This document shows, piece after piece, positions 10,779 to 44,328 of a stretch of DNA of 44,328 nucleotides. How positions within the stretch are numbered: position 1 is the stretch's first letter; every line of letters begins with the position of its first letter. A program made the translations under genes and the position numbers. The stretch is taken from the NCBI GenBank assembly GCA_026414365.1, contig JAOAJD010000001.1, positions 477,745 to 522,072 of the forward strand, read 5' to 3'. This stretch comes from Candidatus Iainarchaeum sp. GTDB lineage: Archaea; Iainarchaeota; Iainarchaeia; Iainarchaeales; SKW153. The notes below the pieces were generated by a model. That model ran no database searches. It was not told the DNA's origin and saw nothing but the letters and a program-made list of their open reading frames with translations.

Positions 10779-10791
10779 GCTTTGAAAAAGC
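10779..10791 (-). terminator. Short hairpin at the end of the tyrosine-rich surface gene
   Basis: A 5-bp inverted repeat (GCTTT, 3-nt loop, AAAGC) begins at the stop codon of the surface protein gene and is followed on the minus strand by TTTTT after six bases. Archaeal termination needs mainly a T-run, so this may mark the transcript end before the ribosomal promoter. The stem is short and could be chance. Confidence 0.3.
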
Positions 10792-13046
10792 TAACTTTTA
10801 CTATTATTATTGTTAATATTGTTTATGAGCTGCCAAGATTCTTTTTCTTTTTTAGGTGAAGTTATCATTAGTAAAATAATTAGTAAAATTATAGCTATTA
10901 GGCCTAAGAAAAAGTTACTTGTGATTACTGACATTGCTATTGCAGAAATAGTTGTCAAAGGGCTTTTTATTTCAGCTTCTTTTTCTTTTATTATTTTTAT
11001 TCTTTTAAATACTTCGTCATTATCAGTAGTTATTTTCAAAAATGTGTAATATTCATTTATTTCTAAATCTTCTTTTTCATGGATTTTTATTTCTAAACTT
11101 TGGGATTCATTACTTTCTAATAAAATTTCTTTTTCTTCGGCTACTATATTTTCATTACCAACCAACTCTAAATAGAACTTTTTTCTATCGTTACTTACAT
11201 TTTTTACAGTAAGCCCTAAAGTTGCTTTTCCATCTATTAACTTAACTTCGTTTTCATATTCTAAAACTTCTATAGATCTTTTGGTTTCATTTGTTTGCCC
11301 TTGTGTATTTTGGTTATTTGTTCCCTCGTTCGTTGTTTTAACTTTTTCTACATACGTAACTTTTTCTGCTATTTTTTGCCCGTCGTAATAAAGTTCATAA
11401 AATATATATCCTTTGCTGCCTTGTAAATTATAGATTTTGAACGTTCTCTCTGCTGTCCTTTTTGGTTCTAGGATAATCTTGTCCAAAGATACATTTAAGT
11501 TTTCACCTCTTATATAAAGTTCAGCAGTTTTTCTTCCAGAGTTTTCTAAAGTTAAACTTATTATTCCATAATCAATTATCTTCACACTTTCAACAATAGT
11601 TAGTCTTGGTTGTGTATCTTTTTCACCAATTACATAAATAGTTGAAGTAAAGTCTTTAGATAATTCAAAGCCATTGTTGAAATAACCTCTAACTGTTATT
11701 GTCAAATCTTCTATTGAAGAATCTTCTTCAATATATGCAGCTCTAATTTTTATTTTTGCATAAGCAGTTGATCCTGAGGCCACCATGTTTGAAAAATCCT
11801 CAACTTGTGCAGTTATATTTTTTGTTGTTTTTATTGAGATATCTTCGACAATAAAGCTTTCTTTATAGAAATTTTTTATTATCAAATATTTTGTAACGCT
11901 TTGTCCATTTTTTATTGTTACATTGTCAAAGGATAGAGATATACTGCTTGTTGTTGGTGGTACTATTTGTTCATCACTGTTTGTATTGTTGTTTATGTTA
12001 GAATTTGTTATGTTTGTGTTAGGACTAAAGTTTAAGCTTTGGCTAATTTGATTTTGCGTATTTGAATTTTTTATTGTGTTATAATAATTAATCTCTGATT
12101 GCCTAGTGATCTCTTCCCAACCAGTTTTTGGGATATAGTAAGAATAACTTGTTGCACTACCAGAATTATTAGATATTGAATTTTCAATATCGTCTTTCAT
12201 AAATATTTCTTTCGAACCATTAGCATATATGTAAAAATTAGATGTTTTATTACATATTACTCCATCTTTAAACTGTGCGCTTATCGTTAAGGAAGCATAT
12301 GTTGTATTATTTCTTGTGTCATCATCAGCTTTTAGAGTTATTTCTAAATTTCCCTTCCCATCGCCCATAACTTCGTCAGGATAATCTACCTTTAAAGCTT
12401 TGATATCTGGATTTCCTGTAGTAACATAAACATTGTTTATTTCGAGGTTGTAATATCCTTGATTATTTATGGTAGCAATTATCTTTTTTGTTTCTCCTTC
12501 AGATATAGAGATACTATCAACAACTAATTTTACATCTGAACAATCTGAAGTTTGTGGGTAATTGTAATTGTAACCAATTCCGCTACCCACGTAATTATCA
12601 TAACTAGTGTATGTATACACATTATATGTTACACTATAAGGATAGGTGTAATAATAAGAGGGATAATATATCCAATTTGGATCGTAGTACCAATGTCCAC
12701 TAACATAGTAATAAGTACCAGGATAGTATGAGTAATATGCAATATTCCACGGATTATAACGCCAATAATAATTGTAGCTATACCAACCAGGTTCAAAATA
12801 ATAATAATTTCCTAAATAATAAACTCTATAAGGATTACTAAAATAATACCATTCTTCTATATGATAATCATAAGGTCTGCTTACAGTTCTCCAAGTATCT
12901 CCAGAATAAACTTGTATGTACCAATCATCACTGTAAGATTCAAAACCAAAAAATTCATAAGCAATTGTATTACTAAGTAAATAAAAAAATCCCAAAATAA
13001 AAAATAATGCTTTACTAAATTTACTATTTGTTAGTTGTAACATCAT
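10791..13046 (-). CDS. Membrane-anchored surface protein with tyrosine-rich N-terminal region
   Basis: A 751-residue protein with no recognised specific function. A signal peptide covers residues 1-29 (hydrophobic KALFFILGFFYLL, then SNTIA). Residues 30-163 contain 43 Tyr and 8 Trp, with many YYY and YxY runs and very little Lys or Leu. After C169 come several beta-rich, CARDB-like or Ig-like modules (for example LVVDSISISEGETKKIIATI at about 170-190, and repeated FDNVTIKNGQSVTKYLIIKN-type modules), separated by an Asn/Ser-rich linker at about 320-365. A transmembrane helix near 705-732 is followed by a short charged tail (SPKKEKE). The topology is outside with a C-terminal anchor. It appears to be its own transcription unit between RtcB and the ribosomal operon. 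S-layer component or adhesin is a guess. Confidence 0.75.
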   Translation of the reverse strand: MMLQLTNSKFSKALFFILGFFYLLSNTIAYEFFGFESYSDDWYIQVYSGDTWRTVSRPYDYHIEEWYYFSNPYRVYYLGNYYYFEPGWYSYNYYWRYNPWNIAYYSYYPGTYYYVSGHWYYDPNWIYYPSYYYTYPYSVTYNVYTYTSYDNYVGSGIGYNYNYPQTSDCSDVKLVVDSISISEGETKKIIATINNQGYYNLEINNVYVTTGNPDIKALKVDYPDEVMGDGKGNLEITLKADDDTRNNTTYASLTISAQFKDGVICNKTSNFYIYANGSKEIFMKDDIENSISNNSGSATSYSYYIPKTGWEEITRQSEINYYNTIKNSNTQNQISQSLNFSPNTNITNSNINNNTNSDEQIVPPTTSSISLSFDNVTIKNGQSVTKYLIIKNFYKESFIVEDISIKTTKNITAQVEDFSNMVASGSTAYAKIKIRAAYIEEDSSIEDLTITVRGYFNNGFELSKDFTSTIYVIGEKDTQPRLTIVESVKIIDYGIISLTLENSGRKTAELYIRGENLNVSLDKIILEPKRTAERTFKIYNLQGSKGYIFYELYYDGQKIAEKVTYVEKVKTTNEGTNNQNTQGQTNETKRSIEVLEYENEVKLIDGKATLGLTVKNVSNDRKKFYLELVGNENIVAEEKEILLESNESQSLEIKIHEKEDLEINEYYTFLKITTDNDEVFKRIKIIKEKEAEIKSPLTTISAIAMSVITSNFFLGLIAIILLIILLMITSPKKEKESWQLINNINNNNSKS

Positions 13047-32746: not shown

Positions 32747-33850
32747 TTACTTTTCAAGTACTACTAAACTTTCTCTCACTTTACCAGTTCTAAAAGTCCT
32801 TTCTCTGTGACAATTAATCTCTCTAGCTATCACAATTTCTTTGCATTTAAAGCCGATTTCTTGGCTAATGTCTGCAATTATTTCATCGGATTGGATATTT
32901 CTGTCAGGAAAGCAGCCTCCTGCTATATCAATTATAACTTTTCCGCCTTCTCTCAGACCAAGATATATTTTTTCTAGGGACATTCTCATATCTTTAAAAT
33001 AGGCCTCAGCAATCGTTCTACCTTCTTTAATTTCTTTTGCTTCATCCCCTATAAAAGATCTTAAGCTAGTTTCTTGGTGATCAAAAAATATTGCAAGTTC
33101 TATTTTGTAAACTTTTGTGTATTCTATTTTGTTTAAGTATGGAGGAGATGTTATTACAGCATCTATTGAATTTTCTTCTATGTTGATAATTCTTGCGTCG
33201 CCATTTATTATCTTGGGTTCTATTCCATCCAAAATAGTTTCATTTGATTTTTCTAAATCTCTTATCATTCTTTTTATTTTGTTAATTAAAATACTCTTTA
33301 TTGGAATAGGCGGTTTCTTTATTTTTCTCAGGCTGGCCCCTTGTTTTATTGCGTTTGCTACTTTATCTGTGGAATCTATTAATGCAAGCATAAAGAAGTT
33401 TTTTATTACCTCATTTTCTAATTCTTCAAATTTTTCTTTATAAAAATAAATATTACCTAATGTTTTACCATAAAAATATTCTTTTAGCCATTTTTTTCTG
33501 ATCTCTTCTTTAGGTGTTGGTTTTAGTTGTCTAATCTTTTCGAATTCTTTTTTTAGCTCACCAATATCATAATTTCTAGTCTTTACTTTCGATACAAAAC
33601 ATGCTAGTGGCGAAATATCTATCCCGATAGCATTCATTTTTCTTTCTTTTGCAACTAGCAAGGTTGTTCCTGAGCCACAAAAAGGATCTAAAATAGTACC
33701 ATGCAGATCATATCTGTCTATACAATAATCTACGAGTTCTTTTGAGAACCCTTCTTTAAAATAGAACCAGTTATAAATTGGTTTGCTTTTATTTAGAATA
33801 AATGTAACAGCCCTCTCTAGTGAGGGCTCTTCTCTAAAATTATATCTCAT
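32747..33850 (-). CDS. Orphan DNA methyltransferase (probable N4-cytosine/N6-adenine type)
   Basis: 367-residue S-adenosylmethionine-dependent amino-methyltransferase. The cofactor motif DPFCGSGTT is at residues 55-63 with GIDISPLA at 76-83, and the catalytic motif TSPPYLN at 234-240. This order, cofactor motif first, and the TSPPY form fit DNA amino-methylases; TSPPY is most frequent among N4-cytosine enzymes. The about 150 residues between motifs could hold the target-recognition region. No THUMP domain is present, which argues against a Trm11-type tRNA methylase. No restriction endonuclease is adjacent, so it appears orphan. It lies between ribH (convergent) and acs (16 nt downstream of its stop). 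Confidence 0.8.
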   Translation of the reverse strand: MRYNFREEPSLERAVTFILNKSKPIYNWFYFKEGFSKELVDYCIDRYDLHGTILDPFCGSGTTLLVAKERKMNAIGIDISPLACFVSKVKTRNYDIGELKKEFEKIRQLKPTPKEEIRKKWLKEYFYGKTLGNIYFYKEKFEELENEVIKNFFMLALIDSTDKVANAIKQGASLRKIKKPPIPIKSILINKIKRMIRDLEKSNETILDGIEPKIINGDARIINIEENSIDAVITSPPYLNKIEYTKVYKIELAIFFDHQETSLRSFIGDEAKEIKEGRTIAEAYFKDMRMSLEKIYLGLREGGKVIIDIAGGCFPDRNIQSDEIIADISQEIGFKCKEIVIAREINCHRERTFRTGKVRESLVVLEK

Positions 33851-36789: not shown

Positions 36790-37797
36790 TTATGTTTTTT
36801 TGGAATTTTTTTCTTCTTGTATATATTTAAATGCATGATATGCAGCAGTAGCTCCCTGTGCTGCGGCCGTTATAGCTTGTTTAAATTCATTGTTTGTCAC
36901 ATCTCCTGCTGCAAATACACCTTCTATATTAGTTTCACATTTTTCATTTATCAATATTTCTCCTTCTTCATTTAATTTTATACCTATCTTTTTAGCTAAT
37001 TCGCTTCTTGGGTTTTGGCCTACATATATAAAGACTCCATCTACTCTAAGCTCATTTTTTCCTCTATATTTTTTTTTCAAAACAATTTTCTCTACTGATC
37101 TTTTACCCTTTATTTCTACAACTTCATTACTATTTATTATCTCAGCTTTTCCTTTTTTCAATATTTTTTCAAACTCAGAAAGGTTTTTTGCTTCAGGGTG
37201 AATCTTAGGTAAATTGTTTATCACGTATGTTTTTTTTGCATATTTGGAGAGCAAAACAGCTTCTTTTATTGCACTATCTCCACCACCAATTACAACAACT
37301 TTCTTATTTTTGAAGAAGGCTGCATCACATAATGCGCAATAACTTACACCTTTATTGAGAAATTCTTTCTCTCCTTTTATATTCAACTCTTTAGGTTCTG
37401 ATCCAGTTGCTAAAATTATAGTTTTTGAATTATATGTTTCTTTCTCAGTAAAAACCTTAAAGTATTTCTCTTTTTTTATGTCCTCAACTTTTTCTTCGCA
37501 AATTGATACACCATAATCAAGCATATGATTCTCTAACAGCTCAAATAATTTTTTTCCATTTATTGAAATAATCCCCGGGTAATTCTCTATTCTATCTGTT
37601 AAAGATATCTTCCCACCAGGAATTTCTTTAAATATCAAAACATTTAATCCCAATCTTGAAGCATACATCGCAGCGCATAAACCTGCAGGACCATAGCCAA
37701 TTACTGCTACATCATAAATTAGATCTCTTTTTGACTTTCTTTCAATTTTTTGTCGTGGTTCTAGTAATATTTCAAGTTCTTCGCTCTTATCAATCAT
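36790..37797 (-). CDS. trxB: Thioredoxin reductase
   Basis: FAD-dependent NAD(P)H:thioredoxin oxidoreductase, 335 residues. FAD-binding GYGPAGLCAAMYASRLGLNV at 34-53, redox-active C154-x2-C157 in SYCALCDAAFF, NAD(P)H-binding GGGDSA at 171-176, and the C-terminal FAD motif GVFAAGDVTNNEFKQAITAA. Residues 1-25 are a charged extension compared with typical enzymes of about 310 residues. Only 5 nt separate it from the membrane Trx-CcdA gene, so the two are surely co-transcribed. Confidence 0.95.
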   Translation of the reverse strand: MIDKSEELEILLEPRQKIERKSKRDLIYDVAVIGYGPAGLCAAMYASRLGLNVLIFKEIPGGKISLTDRIENYPGIISINGKKLFELLENHMLDYGVSICEEKVEDIKKEKYFKVFTEKETYNSKTIILATGSEPKELNIKGEKEFLNKGVSYCALCDAAFFKNKKVVVIGGGDSAIKEAVLLSKYAKKTYVINNLPKIHPEAKNLSEFEKILKKGKAEIINSNEVVEIKGKRSVEKIVLKKKYRGKNELRVDGVFIYVGQNPRSELAKKIGIKLNEEGEILINEKCETNIEGVFAAGDVTNNEFKQAITAAAQGATAAYHAFKYIQEEKNSKKT

Positions 37798-37802
37798 AAA
37801 AA

Positions 37803-39023
37803 TTACCTTAACAACTGTGGTGCAAACAGAATTATAATTCCAAGTATAATTAATATAACTCCACCTATCAACTTACACTGTTTAGCATATTTTTCGCCGA
37901 ATGAACTACTTATTGCAAAAGCAGCTATACTAAATATTATTAAATCATCCAACATGTAGAAAATATCATAAAGTGCAATGTAGAAATATCTTTCTATTAT
38001 AGATATGTTAGCCAAAGCAAGAATCTGAGTAAATACTGCAGGTATTGCGGAACTACATAAAAATTCAACTGAATTAACAATAAATGCTAGAGCAATAATA
38101 CTTATTATAATTCCCAAAGATATTGGTTTGGTAATTATCTCTTGTGCAAGATTAATTGTATTTTTATGTGACTTTTCATCTCCTACTTTGCATTCTAAAG
38201 CTCCTTTAGTAGTGATATATTCTTTTAACCCTAAAACACCACCACCAACAGCTATTAATCCAATAATGACACTTACAATTCTTATATAGCCTACAAATAA
38301 AAATACATTTAACCAAGCGGTCATAAAAAGAAAGTATAAAACACCTGAAGCAATAACAAAACTTCCAACAATTAGCCAAAGCTTTCTTCTATCATTTAAT
38401 TCTAATGCTAATGATATTAGATAAACTAAAACCCACATTGCACAAGGATTAAATCCATCCACTAAACCTAATAAAATAGCTAACATTGGCAAAGACATTT
38501 TTGTTAAGTCAGTTTCACCCAAAAATGGAATATTAAATTTAGTATAGTCTATCACTTTTTCTTTTGTTTCTTCTTTAATAATACTCTCGCTTTTTTTGCA
38601 CGCTTCATAGCATTTAGTTATTTCGGCTTTTATTTCTTCTTTATTATGAAAACCTACAAGTGCACTCTTGTGTTCTTTACCAATTATTAATGTAGGTACT
38701 CCTAAATTTGAAAGATTTAAACCAGCTTCTGCCGCCATCTTGTAAAAAATATCATACTCTTGTGGTTTTGAAACATCGTGAAAAACAAATTCTATCTCTG
38801 GCATCTCTTTTTGGAGTTCATAAATTATTGGTTTTTGTTCATTACAGTGTGGACAAGTTGGTAAATAAAAAAAATGTACAGTAAATTTTTCCTCTTTTAC
38901 TTGATTAGGTTCATTATTTATATTTATTGCAATTGCTCCCAATATAATCAGAATTATTACTAAAGCAATATTGAACTTAGAGCTTATAAATTCTCTTACC
39001 GAATTTTTAATATTTTCAATCAT
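37803..39023 (-). CDS. Membrane thiol-disulfide carrier: thioredoxin domain fused to CcdA/DsbD-like domain
   Basis: 406 residues. Helix 1 (about 18-34) is followed by a thioredoxin-like domain (about 45-145) with C57-P-H-C60 after FFYLPT, then by a multi-helix membrane domain from about 175 to the end. Membrane cysteines C194 (GFNPCAMWVL) and C323 (SVEFLCSSAIP) are spaced as the redox pair of CcdA/DsbD proteins. With the N-terminus inside, the thioredoxin domain would face outward and receive electrons through the membrane domain. The gene overlaps glutaredoxin by 8 nt and is 5 nt from trxB, implying a relay from NAD(P)H to extracytoplasmic thiols. Confidence 0.85.
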   Translation of the reverse strand: MIENIKNSVREFISSKFNIALVIILIILGAIAININNEPNQVKEEKFTVHFFYLPTCPHCNEQKPIIYELQKEMPEIEFVFHDVSKPQEYDIFYKMAAEAGLNLSNLGVPTLIIGKEHKSALVGFHNKEEIKAEITKCYEACKKSESIIKEETKEKVIDYTKFNIPFLGETDLTKMSLPMLAILLGLVDGFNPCAMWVLVYLISLALELNDRRKLWLIVGSFVIASGVLYFLFMTAWLNVFLFVGYIRIVSVIIGLIAVGGGVLGLKEYITTKGALECKVGDEKSHKNTINLAQEIITKPISLGIIISIIALAFIVNSVEFLCSSAIPAVFTQILALANISIIERYFYIALYDIFYMLDDLIIFSIAAFAISSSFGEKYAKQCKLIGGVILIILGIIILFAPQLLR

Positions 39024-39261
39024 TTAATCCCAAAAGTTCTTTTAATTTTTTTTGGTCATAACCTATAACAAATTTGTCTCCAACAAATATTGTTGGCACA
39101 CTTTTTGATCCAGTCTTCTTAAATAATTCTTCAGCAGCTTTCTCATTTTCTTTTATATCAATCTCTTCGAACTTAATACCATTTTTTTTAAGAAAAATCT
39201 TTACAAAGTAACAAAAAGTACACATTGGAGAACTGTATAATACTACCTTCTTTTGCTGCAT
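39016..39261 (-). CDS. Glutaredoxin-like thiol-disulfide oxidoreductase
   Basis: 81 residues, single thioredoxin-fold domain. The N-terminal VVLYSSPMCTFCYFVKIFLK holds the redox pair C14-x2-C17; SKSVPTIFVGDKFVIGYD carries the cis-proline (after V) and the conserved GYD/GxD loop. It resembles NrdH/glutaredoxin proteins that accept electrons from thioredoxin reductase. First gene of a three-gene redox operon with overlapping or nearly touching frames. Confidence 0.9.
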   Translation of the reverse strand: MQQKKVVLYSSPMCTFCYFVKIFLKKNGIKFEEIDIKENEKAAEELFKKTGSKSVPTIFVGDKFVIGYDQKKLKELLGLND

Positions 39262-39620: not shown

Positions 39621-39691
39621 AAAAATTGTTTCCTTTTGTTTTCAATTTCTGTATGGCTTTATTTACAAAATCTATTTTATCTCTTTATTGA

Positions 39692-39766
39692 TGGGAGGAC
39701 CGGGATTTGAACCCGGGTTTTACGCACCCCAAGCGTAAGTACTAGACCAGGCTATACTATCCCCCC
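39692..39766 (-). tRNA. tRNA-Pro (GGG)
   Basis: 75 nt. Acceptor GGGGGGA/TCCTCCC (one G-U), D-stem GTAT/GTAC, anticodon stem TACGC/GCGTA with loop TTGGGGT giving anticodon GGG, variable AAAC, T-arm CCGGG-TTCAAAT-CCCGG, discriminator A. No intron and no encoded CCA. Confidence 0.95.
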
Positions 39767-39782
39767 AATCCAACAAAAATAT

Positions 39783-39790: not shown

Positions 39791-39973
39791 AAATAGAAAA
39801 TTAAATCTTTGCGTATTAGTTTATCTTGTAGCTAGAGTAAAGTACAATAGATTCGCCTGAGATATTAATATTATCTGCTCCATTTTTTTGCTGCAAAAAT
39901 ACTTAAATGTTAGTTCAATATTTAGATTTATATTGATTATGTAGAAAGTTAGTAAACTCTTTAATATTTTCAG

Positions 39974-40047
39974 CGAGCCTGCGGGGATTTGAACCCCGGA
40001 CACCTCGGTTAAAAGCCGAGTGCTCTGCCAGGCTGAGCTACAGGCCC
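39974..40047 (-). tRNA. tRNA-Lys (TTT)
   Basis: 74 nt. Acceptor GGGCCTG/CAGGCTC (one G-U), D-arm GCTC-AGCCTGGCA-GAGC, anticodon stem CTCGG/CCGAG with loop CTTTTAA giving anticodon TTT, T-arm CGGGG-TTCAAAT-CCCCG, discriminator G. No intron and no encoded CCA. It follows the surface-protein cluster by 48 bp. Confidence 0.95.
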
Positions 40048-40095: not shown

Positions 40096-41532
40096 TTATT
40101 TTTTTATTTTTCTTTTTTTCAATTTTCTTATTTCTGCAATATTGTCATATATCTTGTTTATCTTACTCTTAATTTGTAAGATTTCTATTATTATACCTAA
40201 AAATAAGATTATAAGCAGGATATTAAAAATATTGAGTAGGTTATTAAATTTAAAAATTTCTTTTTTATCTTCTGTTTTGGTTTCTTCTATCTTTTCGTGG
40301 ACCATTACTTTAACCTCTCTAGTTATTTTTGTTAGATTATTGATTGTCCCTTCTGTAGGTTTTATTACTAGTATTAAGTTCTCGATTCCTGATCTTTTAG
40401 ATGTTTTTATTTCAAACTCGATATTTTTGTCTTCTCCTGCTTTCAGAAATAATTCTTTTTGTTTTTCAACTTCCCAGTCTAGCGGAACTATCAAAAATAT
40501 TAATAGATTAAGATCTCTATTACCAACATTCTTTATAGTAAATATAATTTTAGATTTTGTTTCAGGTAGCATTTTTTCTGCAATTACGTCTATTATCTTT
40601 ATTTCTCTCTTCTCTCTCTCAAAAACTCTAACAATAAAATTTGTTGTTTTTAAGTAGTTGTCTCCTTTTATTGATAAGTCAAAAGCATAATCATCTTCTC
40701 TTGTGTCTTCAGGAACTTTTATCTTCACTAAAATTTTAATTTCTTCATCAGGAGCAATAATATTTTTTTGTTCAATTATTTCAAACCATTCTGCTGGGGT
40801 TATTTCTACTTTCAGATTTTTTAGCTCTGCATTGCCAGTATTCTTAATTCTTATAGTAAGATATTCTACTGATCCTTGTTCTATTTTTATATCTCTTTGT
40901 AATTCAACAATTTCTATATCCGCAAACTTTGGCTGAGGCGTTTGTATTATTTGGGTAACAAATCCTTTCTGCTCTTGCTTTTTAGTTGCGGTGAATTGTA
41001 AAGAGGCGGAACTTTTCCTTTGTCCATAATAAACAATAATCTTAAACCAATAGCTACCAGGATCTTTTAGGTTTAATGTTAACGTTGTTTGCCAACTTTC
41101 ATTTTGCTTTATTAGTTTTGCTGCTGAAGAGTATGCTATGCTATTCTTATTGCAATTGTCATTAACGTTAGAAACAATGCAATATTCATATATATATTCT
41201 TGATCTGTTATTCCTTCATTTTTTATTTCTACTAAAAAACTTACATCAGGTATCTCTGAATCTAGAACATTTATTATTCTAACTTGTGGTGGATTCTCTA
41301 AAATAACTTGAGGGAAATAAATTCCCAATTTTACATCCCAAGCCCCTTTTTTGAAATTTCCGCTAATATCATCGATATAAAAGTTCAAATCAAAATCATT
41401 ATCTGAAGCATTACCTGATATTTGTAATAATTCTGTTAATTCTAAATCATATCCATTTCCACTGGCTTCAAAAGAAAAAGTTCTTGGAGCAATGATTAAA
41501 TAGGAGAATAATAAAATAAATACTCTCTTCAT
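40096..41532 (-). CDS. Membrane-anchored exported protein with NEW3-like beta domains
   Basis: 478 residues from the ATG giving MKRVFILLFSYLIIAPRTFS, a signal peptide; a GTG three codons upstream is part of AAGTGA and less likely. Residues about 25-200 are beta-rich (FDLNFYIDDISGNFKKGAWD). Two tandem NEW3/CARDB-like modules follow at about 205-305 (IEIVELQRDIKIEQGSVEYL; IKVPEDTREDDYAFDLSIKG) and 310-405. A transmembrane helix near 435-455 (ILLIILFLGIIIEIL) is followed by a basic tail ending RKLKKRKIKK, so most of the protein is outside. Last gene of the exported-protein run; starts 9 nt after the lipoprotein stop. Function unknown; scaffold or cell-surface attachment is plausible. Confidence 0.7.
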   Translation of the reverse strand: MKRVFILLFSYLIIAPRTFSFEASGNGYDLELTELLQISGNASDNDFDLNFYIDDISGNFKKGAWDVKLGIYFPQVILENPPQVRIINVLDSEIPDVSFLVEIKNEGITDQEYIYEYCIVSNVNDNCNKNSIAYSSAAKLIKQNESWQTTLTLNLKDPGSYWFKIIVYYGQRKSSASLQFTATKKQEQKGFVTQIIQTPQPKFADIEIVELQRDIKIEQGSVEYLTIRIKNTGNAELKNLKVEITPAEWFEIIEQKNIIAPDEEIKILVKIKVPEDTREDDYAFDLSIKGDNYLKTTNFIVRVFEREKREIKIIDVIAEKMLPETKSKIIFTIKNVGNRDLNLLIFLIVPLDWEVEKQKELFLKAGEDKNIEFEIKTSKRSGIENLILVIKPTEGTINNLTKITREVKVMVHEKIEETKTEDKKEIFKFNNLLNIFNILLIILFLGIIIEILQIKSKINKIYDNIAEIRKLKKRKIKK

Positions 41533-41541
41533 TTTTTTCAC

Positions 41542-41856
41542 TTAATCTATTTTTAAATTGCTTATTGGAAGCTCCTTAATTATTTTGTTGTTGTCAATAT
41601 CATATATGATCAAAAGATCTGGCCAAGTTAACTGTAGCATTCCGTTATTAGCGTCATTGTATATTGCCTTTTTTGTTTTTTTAAGTTCTTCTATATTAGA
41701 AATTATCTCTACTCTCGGATTCTCTGTTTTTCCGTATCTTTCTTTTAGCTCCTCTATTGCAAGCTCTATCTTATATTCTTCTACATTTTTATGTTGATTA
41801 TTTATACAACCTATAAGCAAAAAAGGTAGTAAGATTAGTGGAACTATTCTCTTCAA
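41542..41856 (-). CDS. Small putative lipoprotein, TTG start
   Basis: 104 residues. The N-terminus MKRIVPLILLPFLLIGC is a lipoprotein signal with lipobox LIGC and cleavage before C17. The mature part is short, with helical IELAIEELKERYGK and a beta-like LLIIYDIDNNKIIKEL end. Start is TTG, one nt after the stop of the preceding gene, with AAGGTAGGT upstream. No family is recognised. Its tight spacing to genes on both sides indicates one operon. Confidence 0.6.
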   Translation of the reverse strand: MKRIVPLILLPFLLIGCINNQHKNVEEYKIELAIEELKERYGKTENPRVEIISNIEELKKTKKAIYNDANNGMLQLTWPDLLIIYDIDNNKIIKELPISNLKID

Positions 41857-41857
41857 G

Positions 41858-42415
41858 CTAACCTACCTTATTAGAAATGTTAGGACATTTTATACCATAA
41901 CATTTAGCTGTTTTTCCATTAATTTCTATTGTCATAGGTTCTAATATTTTTTTGACAACATCGATAATTTGCACTGTCTTTTCTCTTACTGTTTTCAATG
42001 CATCTATCAAATTATCTACAAATTTTTCTGTTATACTTTCTTCTTTTTCTTTAACATTGTCTTCTCCAGCATTTTGATCTTCAATTATAGATATATTACC
42101 ATTTTCTTTGCTTGTATTTTTGTTTTCATTTATTCCATTATTTTTGTTTATATTGTTTTCATCTTGATTTTCTATTCCATCTACTGCATCACAGTTAGCA
42201 TCTTTTTTGTTTTGATCATCTTTTTCTATGTCATAATATCCTATCTGATTTTCTCCTGCTTTTAAAATGTTGTTTATATCTGATAAATTATAGTCATTTT
42301 TATTAATGTCAATATTTAAATTTTCATCTTGGATTACTAAACTTTCTTCTTGTTCTTGGGAGAAGTTAAATGAACTTATCAAAATAAAAAACAAAAAAAC
42401 CATTTTGGTATTCAT
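41858..42415 (-). CDS. Exported Asn/Asp/Glu-rich protein of unknown function
   Basis: 185 residues. Signal peptide MNTKMVFLFFILISSFNFS, then a long low-complexity stretch rich in Asn, Asp, Glu and Lys (about 25-125), then a helical segment EKFVDNLIDALKTVREKTVQ and a short C-terminal part with the cysteine pair KCYGIKC. No membrane anchor follows. The acidic disordered middle suggests a spacer or an ion-binding surface. It is 17 nt after the preceding small anchored protein. No family recognised. Confidence 0.6.
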   Translation of the reverse strand: MNTKMVFLFFILISSFNFSQEQEESLVIQDENLNIDINKNDYNLSDINNILKAGENQIGYYDIEKDDQNKKDANCDAVDGIENQDENNINKNNGINENKNTSKENGNISIIEDQNAGEDNVKEKEESITEKFVDNLIDALKTVREKTVQIIDVVKKILEPMTIEINGKTAKCYGIKCPNISNKVG

Positions 42416-42432
42416 AAAGATCTTCTGTTGTT

Positions 42433-42825
42433 TTATTTGTTGGAAGTAAAAATACAGCCCTCTCTTCTTACTAAAACAATGTCTGTATAGTACTTACCAT
42501 CTTTTTCTATAACTCTTATGCCTTTGGTTCTCAGCTCCTGTGCTGTCTGATAATTAATTTCTATAGTTGTTTCTTGTTTTGGTTCATACCATATCCCACC
42601 CTTAGCTAAGCACCAATCTGACTTTAAGGCAGTTAGGTTAGACTGGGCATTTGCTAGATTCAACATGAAATTTTTATCTTCTTCGCTTAGATTGACAATA
42701 ATTTTTTGTTGTTTATTAGTTCCAAAAAAATCTTTTGTCAAAAACCCTGCTACGAAAGAGATAATAACTATTAGAGCTAGACCTGTTATTTTAACTAATT
42801 TTTCTTTATCTTCCCATTTTACCAT
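42433..42825 (-). CDS. Small N-terminally anchored protein
   Basis: 130 residues from the ATG that follows GAGGTGAT; the reading from farther upstream overlaps the preceding gene and covers this ribosome-binding site. A single transmembrane helix at about 12-30 (ITGLALIVIISFVAGFLTK) leaves about 95 residues outside. A short helix (SEEDKNFMLNLANAQSNL) precedes a domain with two cysteines (SDWCLAKGG and REGCIF), likely a disulfide. Thirteen nt after the repeat protein. No family recognised. Confidence 0.6.
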   Translation of the reverse strand: MVKWEDKEKLVKITGLALIVIISFVAGFLTKDFFGTNKQQKIIVNLSEEDKNFMLNLANAQSNLTALKSDWCLAKGGIWYEPKQETTIEINYQTAQELRTKGIRVIEKDGKYYTDIVLVRREGCIFTSNK

Positions 42826-42838
42826 AAAATCACCTCTC

Positions 42839-44328
42839 TTAATTAAAAGGGATAATTGTAGCAATGTTTTTTATTACAGCAATCAAACTATTGTTTCCAG
42901 TATATGTTGTTGTTATTCTGATATATTGTGGATTTTCGAAATCTTCACAAAAGCCTATGTTCTCACCAATCACTTCACCATCTTGTAATACATTTACTTT
43001 TTTAACAGAACAAAAACCACCATTTCTTTGTGTAAGACATTCTAAAGCAAACAAATAAATATCTCCATTACTGTTAGAAGTAATAGTACTTGTGATACAT
43101 TGTGCTTCATCTATTTGGAGAGCCATTTTAGCTAATGAATTTTGTTCGCCAATAAAAACTATGAATGCTTTAAACTGTAGAAGGTCATTTCCACTAAGTT
43201 GAGGATATTCTTTTTCGTAAATTATATCTTCATTTGAGTCAGCAATGTATTGATTGTCATCATTCCAAAGTCCAAATGGGACTTTATATCTAGAACCCAT
43301 ATAATATTTCATTATCTCAGGAGCAACTAGGTTTGTATCTAGGACAATATTGTTTGCATCATCCAATGTAATATGACCTATTGCATTAATGTCTTCTATG
43401 TTAAAATCATTTCCTTCTTTTTCAATCTTTACAAGTGTTAACTTTGGATCATGGCCGGCTATTACAAACTCTCCTTTTGATATCAATATCTTCGGATCTG
43501 GTGTAATTATTGGAAATTCTATAGTGTTACCTTGGTCTGTCAAAGATCCTTTTTGTATACTTAAACTAACACTGTTGCTGAGTTTTATCCTAAGTGCTGA
43601 TTGTATTTCTTGTATTGCTTGCGAACTTAGTTTTAAATACTGTAATGAATTATTCAGATCAAGACTATTTATTGCAGCATTGAATTTAGTGTTGAAATGT
43701 GGATCAGTTTCTGTATAGGATTTTAAATACTGTAAGGAGTTGTTTAGGTCTAGGCTATTTATTGCAGTATTAAATTTAGTATCAAATAATGGATCAGTCT
43801 CTGTATATGACTTCAAATATTGTAGACTATTATTAAGATCTAGGCTATTAATAGCAGAACTAAATTTAGAATCGAATAGTGGATCCGTCTCTGTGTAGGA
43901 TTTCAAGTACTGCAGAGAATTGTTTAGGTCTAAAGCTTGTATGGCTGAATTAAACTTACTATCAAATAGTGGATCGGTTTCTGTATATGACTTAAGATAT
44001 TGCAAAGTATTGTTTAAATCTAAAGCTTGTATAGCTGAATTAAATTTAGTATTGAAATGTGGATCTGTTTCCTGTTTCAAGTATTGCAATGAATTATTTA
44101 AATCTAAAGCCTGAATCTTAGAATCAAACAATGGATCTGTCTCCGTATATGACTTAAGATATTGCAAAGTATTGTTTAAATCTAAAGCTTGTATTTTAGA
44201 TTCAAACAACGGATCAGATTCTTGTTTTAAGTATTGCAGGGAGTTATTTAAATCAAGACTATTTATTGCAGCATTGAATTTAGTGTTGAAATGTGGATCA
44301 GTTTCTGTATAGGATTTTAAATACTGTA
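42839..44328 (-). CDS. Large repeat protein, 5' end outside window
   Basis: 495 codons are visible and the frame stays open through the window edge, so the true start and any signal peptide are not seen. The visible N-terminal 232 residues are eight tandem units of 24-30 residues with consensus SYTETDPLFDSKFNSAIxxLDLNNSLQYLK (quoted in parts: SYTETDPLFD, LDLNNSLQYLK). A roughly 260-residue non-repeated C-terminal region follows, beginning LSSQAIQEIQSALRIKLSNS, beta-rich, with four cysteines late in the chain (EAQCITS, ALECLTQ, GGFCSV, GFCEDF). The TETDP-type repeats recall stalk parts of tail-fibre-like or adhesin proteins; this is a resemblance only. It heads a run of four exported-protein genes. 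Confidence 0.75.
   Translation of the reverse strand, partial: QYLKSYTETDPHFNTKFNAAINSLDLNNSLQYLKQESDPLFESKIQALDLNNTLQYLKSYTETDPLFDSKIQALDLNNSLQYLKQETDPHFNTKFNSAIQALDLNNTLQYLKSYTETDPLFDSKFNSAIQALDLNNSLQYLKSYTETDPLFDSKFSSAINSLDLNNSLQYLKSYTETDPLFDTKFNTAINSLDLNNSLQYLKSYTETDPHFNTKFNAAINSLDLNNSLQYLKLSSQAIQEIQSALRIKLSNSVSLSIQKGSLTDQGNTIEFPIITPDPKILISKGEFVIAGHDPKLTLVKIEKEGNDFNIEDINAIGHITLDDANNIVLDTNLVAPEIMKYYMGSRYKVPFGLWNDDNQYIADSNEDIIYEKEYPQLSGNDLLQFKAFIVFIGEQNSLAKMALQIDEAQCITSTITSNSNGDIYLFALECLTQRNGGFCSVKKVNVLQDGEVIGENIGFCEDFENPQYIRITTTYTGNNSLIAVIKNIATIIPFN
43631..44328 (-). repeat. Tandem coding repeat array (24-30 residue units)
   Basis: Eight in-frame units of 72-90 bp, the first truncated at the window edge. 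Unit lengths in order are 30 or more, 24, 26, 28, 30, 30, 30 and 30 residues. Two independent small deletions account for the shorter forms: SYTE to QE (2 residues) and loss of 4 residues in KFNSAIQ to KIQ. A 77-nt segment at 43658-43734 is identical to 44252-44328, exactly 594 bp apart, showing recent copying between units. Confidence 0.92.

Follow-up and report, generated by a model that had tools for sequence, protein, structure and literature searches.

The window analyzed here, a stretch of 44,328 nucleotides (G000:C11:477745-522072), comes from a tiny uncultured archaeon of the Diapherotrites (Iainarchaeota), and one end of it harbors a run of five minus-strand genes that probably encodes a cell-surface fiber together with its membrane attachment. 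In order, the genes encode a repeat protein, hereafter the fiber, and four proteins designated S, A, L and N (Table 1). An earlier note on this DNA had described them as closely spaced genes for one surface assembly, and the spacing was borne out, the intergenic gaps from the repeat gene downstream being 13, 17, 1 and 0 nt. S and A start with ATG, L with TTG and N with GTG, and the four genes are real, as diverged homologs elsewhere keep the conserved residues in the alignments. The last base of the window is also the end of contig C11 (522,072 bases); therefore, the repeat gene is truncated, and the N-terminal part of its product is missing, as is the promoter of the run. A scan for promoters and terminators gave scores no better than those of shuffled sequences.

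Table 1. Features of the five-gene run (positions are those of the window)
Feature	Position	Strand	Evidence or remark
Fiber (repeat) gene	42839-44328	-	Open reading frame open at the 5′ end
Fiber repeat shaft	43631..44328	-	Eight units of 24-30 residues, phrog_9729 match, one unit common to the G004 fiber
Fiber C-terminal domain, probably target-contacting	42839..43630	-	About 263 residues plus stop; homolog searches negative
S, small protein with N-terminal transmembrane (TM) segment and alpha/beta ectodomain	42433..42825	-	Alignments, AlphaFold2 (AF2) model
A, exported Asn/Asp/Glu-rich protein ending in VNGxxAKCxGIxC	41858..42415	-	Composition, homologs after S
L, lipoprotein (lipobox LIGC) with WPxLLxIYD region	41542..41856	-	Homologs in G052 and G001
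N, anchor protein: signal peptide, triple motif, immunoglobulin (Ig)-like/NEW3 domains, C-terminal TM segment	40096..41541	-	Pfam, topology, homologs
N triple motif at the mature N-terminus	41314..41475	-	Periodicity test
N C-terminal TM segment, residues 436-454	40180..40236	-	Topology prediction

The visible part of the window fiber consists of repeat units of about 90 nt (consensus SLQYLKSYTETDPLFDSKFNSAINSLDLNN) followed by a non-repetitive C-terminal domain. The repeat matched phrog_9729, a "tail fiber protein" family, in three stretches (1.7e-20), and tblastn aligned it with the tail fibers of Synechococcus phages (cyanophages) at 27.6% identity (E 7e-5). Moreover, BLASTP revealed that one repeat unit shares 83% identity over 18 residues, and 51% over 37 residues, with a stretch of the fiber of the related genome G004, which is complete, bears a signal peptide and has S and N downstream as in the window. 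The window repeat was not recovered by phmmer in the other fibers of the set, and no homologs of the C-terminal domain were found in the order, among PDB sequences or in viral contigs.

Fibers were sought in a phylum set of 87 genomes, the order set comprising 75 genomes, with the N-terminal domain of the G004 fiber, and afterwards a 14-sequence alignment, as the probe. The results showed that this fiber base domain is present in 19 of the 87 genomes, all of them in the order of the host, with no match among plasmids or phages and none elsewhere in the genome assembly of the window. The fibers range from 194 to 2404 residues in length, and their C-terminal domains are also diverse. YadA_head was matched by the G058 fiber (2.3e-54, nine stretches) and by fibers of G050 (1e-9 and 3.8e-9), and within the order it occurs in six genomes, every one in a single family, while the G047 fiber ends in the phage capsule-lyase tailspike domain K1-lyase_C (3.1e-11). 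The complete fibers carry a hydrophobic signal-like N-terminal segment and no C-terminal TM segment. The base domain was modeled as a beta-sandwich leading into a helix, with a mean predicted local distance difference test score (pLDDT) of 82, and a Foldseek search of this domain against the PDB returned just Ig/filamin-like folds at E > 0.01, which is not significant. The YadA-head, tailspike and tail-fiber families are trimeric where structures are known, and by analogy with its YadA-head and tailspike relatives the fiber would probably form trimers as well. As a separate observation, G050 (L094, L095, L108-L115) harbors about 15 fiber base domains spread over many contig ends, many of them with YadA_head and with near-identical N-terminal regions, a set that possibly represents an expanded, variable adhesin repertoire.

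The resemblance of the window repeat to tail fibers, together with the tailspike domain at the end of the G047 fiber, would also be expected if the fiber belonged to a provirus or a domesticated phage-tail machine instead of being a cellular adhesin. We regard this explanation as highly improbable, as the complete fibers bear signal peptides that are needless for cytoplasmically assembled phage tails, the partner proteins are membrane-anchored, and neither S nor the window fiber has true relatives in viral contigs. In addition, no virion gene was found among the scanned genes of the window, the DNA beyond the contig end lying outside the view.

A lack of co-occurrence of the five genes in relatives had been set beforehand as a result that would refute their grouping; co-occurrence was found in several genomes. 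S was detected in 7 of the 75 genomes of the order, that of the window included. In G052 (L027), from another family of the same order, a fiber end, a LamG protein, S, A, L and N lie on one strand, which keeps the five-gene order of the window with the LamG gene as the single insertion. The order S-A-N is kept in G034 (L025), whose contig begins just upstream of S; in G004 (L029), S and N come after the complete 2404-residue fiber; G027 (L042) has a LamG protein, S and A together; and an L homolog (E 9.4e-7) in G001 is located exactly between the fiber gene and an N-type gene. Altogether, of the seven genomes carrying S, five have it adjacent to fiber, LamG, A or N genes; wherever A was detected (four genomes, the homologs being in G052, G034 and G027), it comes after S; and L sits inside the cluster in G000, G052 and G001.

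Downstream genes were read wherever the contig allowed; most fiber genes lie at contig ends, and many loci were unscorable. A downstream protein was called N-type if it had a signal peptide together with Ig-like domains, a triple motif or both; a C-terminal TM segment is usually present as well. Such a protein follows the fiber directly, or after S or L, in 10 of the 16 loci with readable downstream sequence (G004, G072, G047, two loci of G001, the second fiber of G005, G058, G050:C38, G050:C76 and G026), the call being architectural and not one of sequence similarity in G001, G005, G058, G050 and G026. In the N-type protein of G026, the motif lies at the opposite end and no TM segment was seen. 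Furthermore, the slot of S is occupied in G058 and G050:C38 by a short protein with an N-terminal TM segment and a spaced Cys pair, whose similarity to the S profile is marginal and chiefly in the TM segment. The core that recurs across the phylum is a secreted fiber and then, sometimes after S or L, an N-type membrane protein.

In many fiber-N pairs, S, A and L are absent, and G045 and G065 have S on its own, with a ribosomal protein gene next to it; these three proteins could therefore be unrelated passengers of the operon, the unit then comprising the fiber and N alone. The frequencies of association given above for S, A and L, together with the S-like protein in the S slot of G058 and G050, argue against this, and we consider it distinctly unlikely. 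The lone S of these two genomes, both of genus g35, is flanked by a deaminase-like gene on one side and ribosomal protein genes on the other (L041 6436-6867 and L056 1503-1928); it may serve a purpose unrelated to the fiber, or act at a distance.

Topology predictions and Pfam agreed with the earlier description of S as N-anchored, of L as a lipoprotein with the lipobox LIGC and of N as a NEW3-like protein with a C-terminal anchor. The single TM segment of S spans residues 10-28 near the N-terminus, and the ectodomain contains invariant DWC and GGxW motifs, an invariant R and the invariant final Cys, with 15 invariant columns in the seven sequences. The AF2 model showed an alpha/beta ectodomain with a pLDDT of about 90, for which Foldseek gave no significant fold match in the PDB. 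Matches to S in viral contigs were rejected, as they reflected a chance motif in an unrelated protein. A is a low-complexity protein rich in N (15.7%), E (10.3%) and D (8.6%), with a net charge of about −14; this composition is as had been described, while the proposed signal peptide stood in part, the N-terminus being signal-peptide-like with a hydrophobic stretch below the TM cut-off used. The further suggestion of an acidic-spacer role for A is open to doubt, since conservation is highest in its C-terminal VNGxxAKCxGIxC motif. L begins with a hydrophobic N-terminus followed by the lipobox Cys (LLIGC; KRIVPLILLPFLLIGC), which is kept in G052 and replaced by a TM helix in G001, and its conserved region is WPxLLxIYD. 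Pfam matches of S, A and L were weak and sub-cut-off, and none could be assigned to a family above the cut-off. From their position and topology, they may be accessory parts of the unit.

Residues 221-290 of N matched NPCBM_assoc/NEW3 (PF10633) with 27.8 bits against a cut-off of 24.4, and N is also above the Pfam cut-off for CARDB. It has a signal-like N-terminus and a single, C-terminal TM segment; all but one of the N-type proteins have a TM segment near the C-terminus. UpsA, ArlG and TapA (NCBIfam) were rejected as identities for N, the similarity being sub-cut-off and of a generic Ig-like kind. Within the first ~60 mature residues, the N-type proteins carry a motif in triplicate, its copies ~19 residues apart, as exemplified by TTYAI/TNYNL/TSYAI in G005, STIDLN/STIDLN/SSIDLN in G034 and GYDLE/DFDLN/AWDVK in the window. 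A search for three similar 8-mers at spacings of 15-25 in 12 N-type proteins gave p <= 0.03 in nine of them, with p 0.005 for the window N. The pooled z was 13.8, a value driven strongly by one protein (G001, with three identical units), so that the median z of 3.4 is the fairer figure; for six other segments of these proteins, the pooled z ranged from −2.3 to 2.0. In the window N, the top triple of the program is the SGN part, not the DLN part, and both parts recur. A similar three-copy "SSxNYxL" module is found in bacterial surface proteins, which offers a lead only. Two further genomes, G025 and G013 (L023, L024), contain the closest relatives of N outside the order-conserved run, proteins of 1100-1200 residues in which a different repeat (VWNYATRTLTDYNQ) is fused to the N part, and in G025 a fiber-like gene lies just upstream of the long relative.

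Archaeal envelope proteins commonly carry Ig-like/NEW3 arrays, and unrelated arrays of this kind occur in relatives too; the NEW3 arrays of G018 and G006 are relatives of N outside any such unit. N also shows sub-cut-off similarity to matrix and pilus proteins, and the unit might accordingly be a structure of the cell envelope or biofilm matrix, S-layer-like and with no specific binding target. This is unlikely in our judgment, as an essential coat would hardly be confined to 19 of 87 genomes or vary so much in length (194-2404 residues) and C-terminal domain, and as the C-terminal domains of the fibers include known glycan-contacting types.

We therefore favor, with moderate confidence, a cell-surface fiber with its membrane attachment that serves adhesion or cell contact in this Diapherotrites archaeon. 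The recurring gene order, the topology signals and the similarity of equivalent fibers to tail-fiber, YadA and tailspike proteins carry this interpretation. The repeat protein would be exported by Sec and probably trimerize, its shaft leading to a variable C-terminal head, which would contact the target. N would be held in the membrane by its C-terminal TM segment, while its mature N-terminus with the triple motif may grip the fiber base. S (TM-anchored, with a Cys pair), A (secreted, with a Cys pair) and L (lipid-anchored) would be accessory parts assembling, stabilizing or spacing the base. Trimerization, the contact between fiber and N, the roles of S, A and L and the function in adhesion are inferences. 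Several observations weigh against this interpretation: the N-terminus of the window fiber is cut off, which places its signal peptide and base domain outside the visible sequence; a Pfam scan found no YadA_head in the window fiber; six of the 16 readable loci have no N-type protein (G016, G011, the first fiber of G005, G039:C93, G050:C5 and G050:C92); and the N-type calls in the five genomes named above are architectural.

The earlier note had found none of the proteins assignable to a known system. This did not hold, as N is above the NPCBM_assoc/NEW3 cut-off, the repeat corresponds to phrog_9729 and equivalent fibers carry YadA_head or a tailspike domain. Since N, the repeat and the equivalent fibers match known families, the adhesin proposed in that note is better founded than its reader could know. 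The host contact proposed alongside remains conjectural: the target may be a host, another cell, or a mineral or glycan surface.

A more specific model, which we put forward tentatively and consider unlikely, is that each of the three near-equal strand motifs of N docks one chain of a trimeric fiber, so that one monomeric TM protein would hold the trimer and S, A and L would form a Cys-containing base complex. If true, three-motif docking would be a new way to fix a trimeric adhesin to a single membrane without an outer-membrane barrel. To our knowledge, such archaeal anchoring of tail-fiber/YadA-type adhesins has not been described, and the literature searched, in which few subscription journals were covered, contained no account of a unit of this kind in Diapherotrites. 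The unit is a concrete candidate for cell contact in uncultured Diapherotrites, being conserved, small and Sec-exported, with exchangeable YadA-head or tailspike tips. Moreover, S, A, L and the triple-motif anchor could serve as marker genes for finding such units, since the fibers vary and often break assemblies.

Outside the run, the window contains genes for archaeal ribosomal proteins, RNA polymerase subunits, translation factors and metabolic enzymes. Directly downstream of the run, ~50 nt after the stop of N, lie two minus-strand tRNA genes, tRNA-Lys(TTT) at 39973-40047 and tRNA-Pro(GGG) at 39690-39767, and beyond these two tRNAs is a redox cluster (36790-39261, minus strand) encoding a glutaredoxin-like protein, a thioredoxin domain fused to a membrane part and a thioredoxin-reductase-like flavoprotein. 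S and A do have conserved Cys pairs, but a functional link of the run to these redox genes was dropped, as other genes follow N in G034 and G052. Elsewhere on the minus strand, a 751-residue open reading frame amid housekeeping genes (10791-13046) had no Pfam match at 1e-5, and a predicted DNA methylase-like protein (32747-33850; N6_N4_Mtase, 3.5e-16) had no restriction partner identified nearby.

Among known systems, the unit resembles the YadA family (type Vc trimeric autotransporter adhesins) in its long surface fiber with an exchangeable head and in the YadA_head matches above the Pfam cut-off in some fibers. It differs from that family in the lack of this head from the window fiber and in its anchoring, apparently by a separate TM protein, as no Pfam match to the YadA_anchor C-terminal beta-barrel was found in the window fiber or in the relatives' fibers scanned. 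With phage tail fibers and tailspikes (phrog_9729; K1-lyase_C), it shares the repeat shaft of the window fiber and the tailspike C-terminal domain of the G047 fiber, whereas its cellular gene context, the signal peptides on complete relatives, the membrane-anchored partners and the lack of virion genes seen nearby set it apart. Each of the SPEARE proteins of nanohaloarchaea is one giant polypeptide that has Ig-like tracts, is reported to contain a VirB4/TraG-like ATPase domain and has a proposed role in contact (PMC10266531). The two are alike in that a DPANN archaeon bears surface proteins that are very large or repetitive; in the run, however, the work is split over several genes, and a Pfam scan found no VirB4/TraG-like ATPase domain in the five proteins. 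N matches the NEW3/NPCBM_assoc and CARDB Ig-like surface proteins, and it differs from generic NEW3 proteins in its triple N-terminal motif and its conserved place after the fiber gene. The best-supported view is that the unit works like an adhesin of the tail-fiber/YadA type and is not a type V secreted adhesin, a phage tail or a nanohaloarchaeal giant protein; it represents a new archaeal variant of such adhesins and brings with it three unnamed families of accessory proteins.

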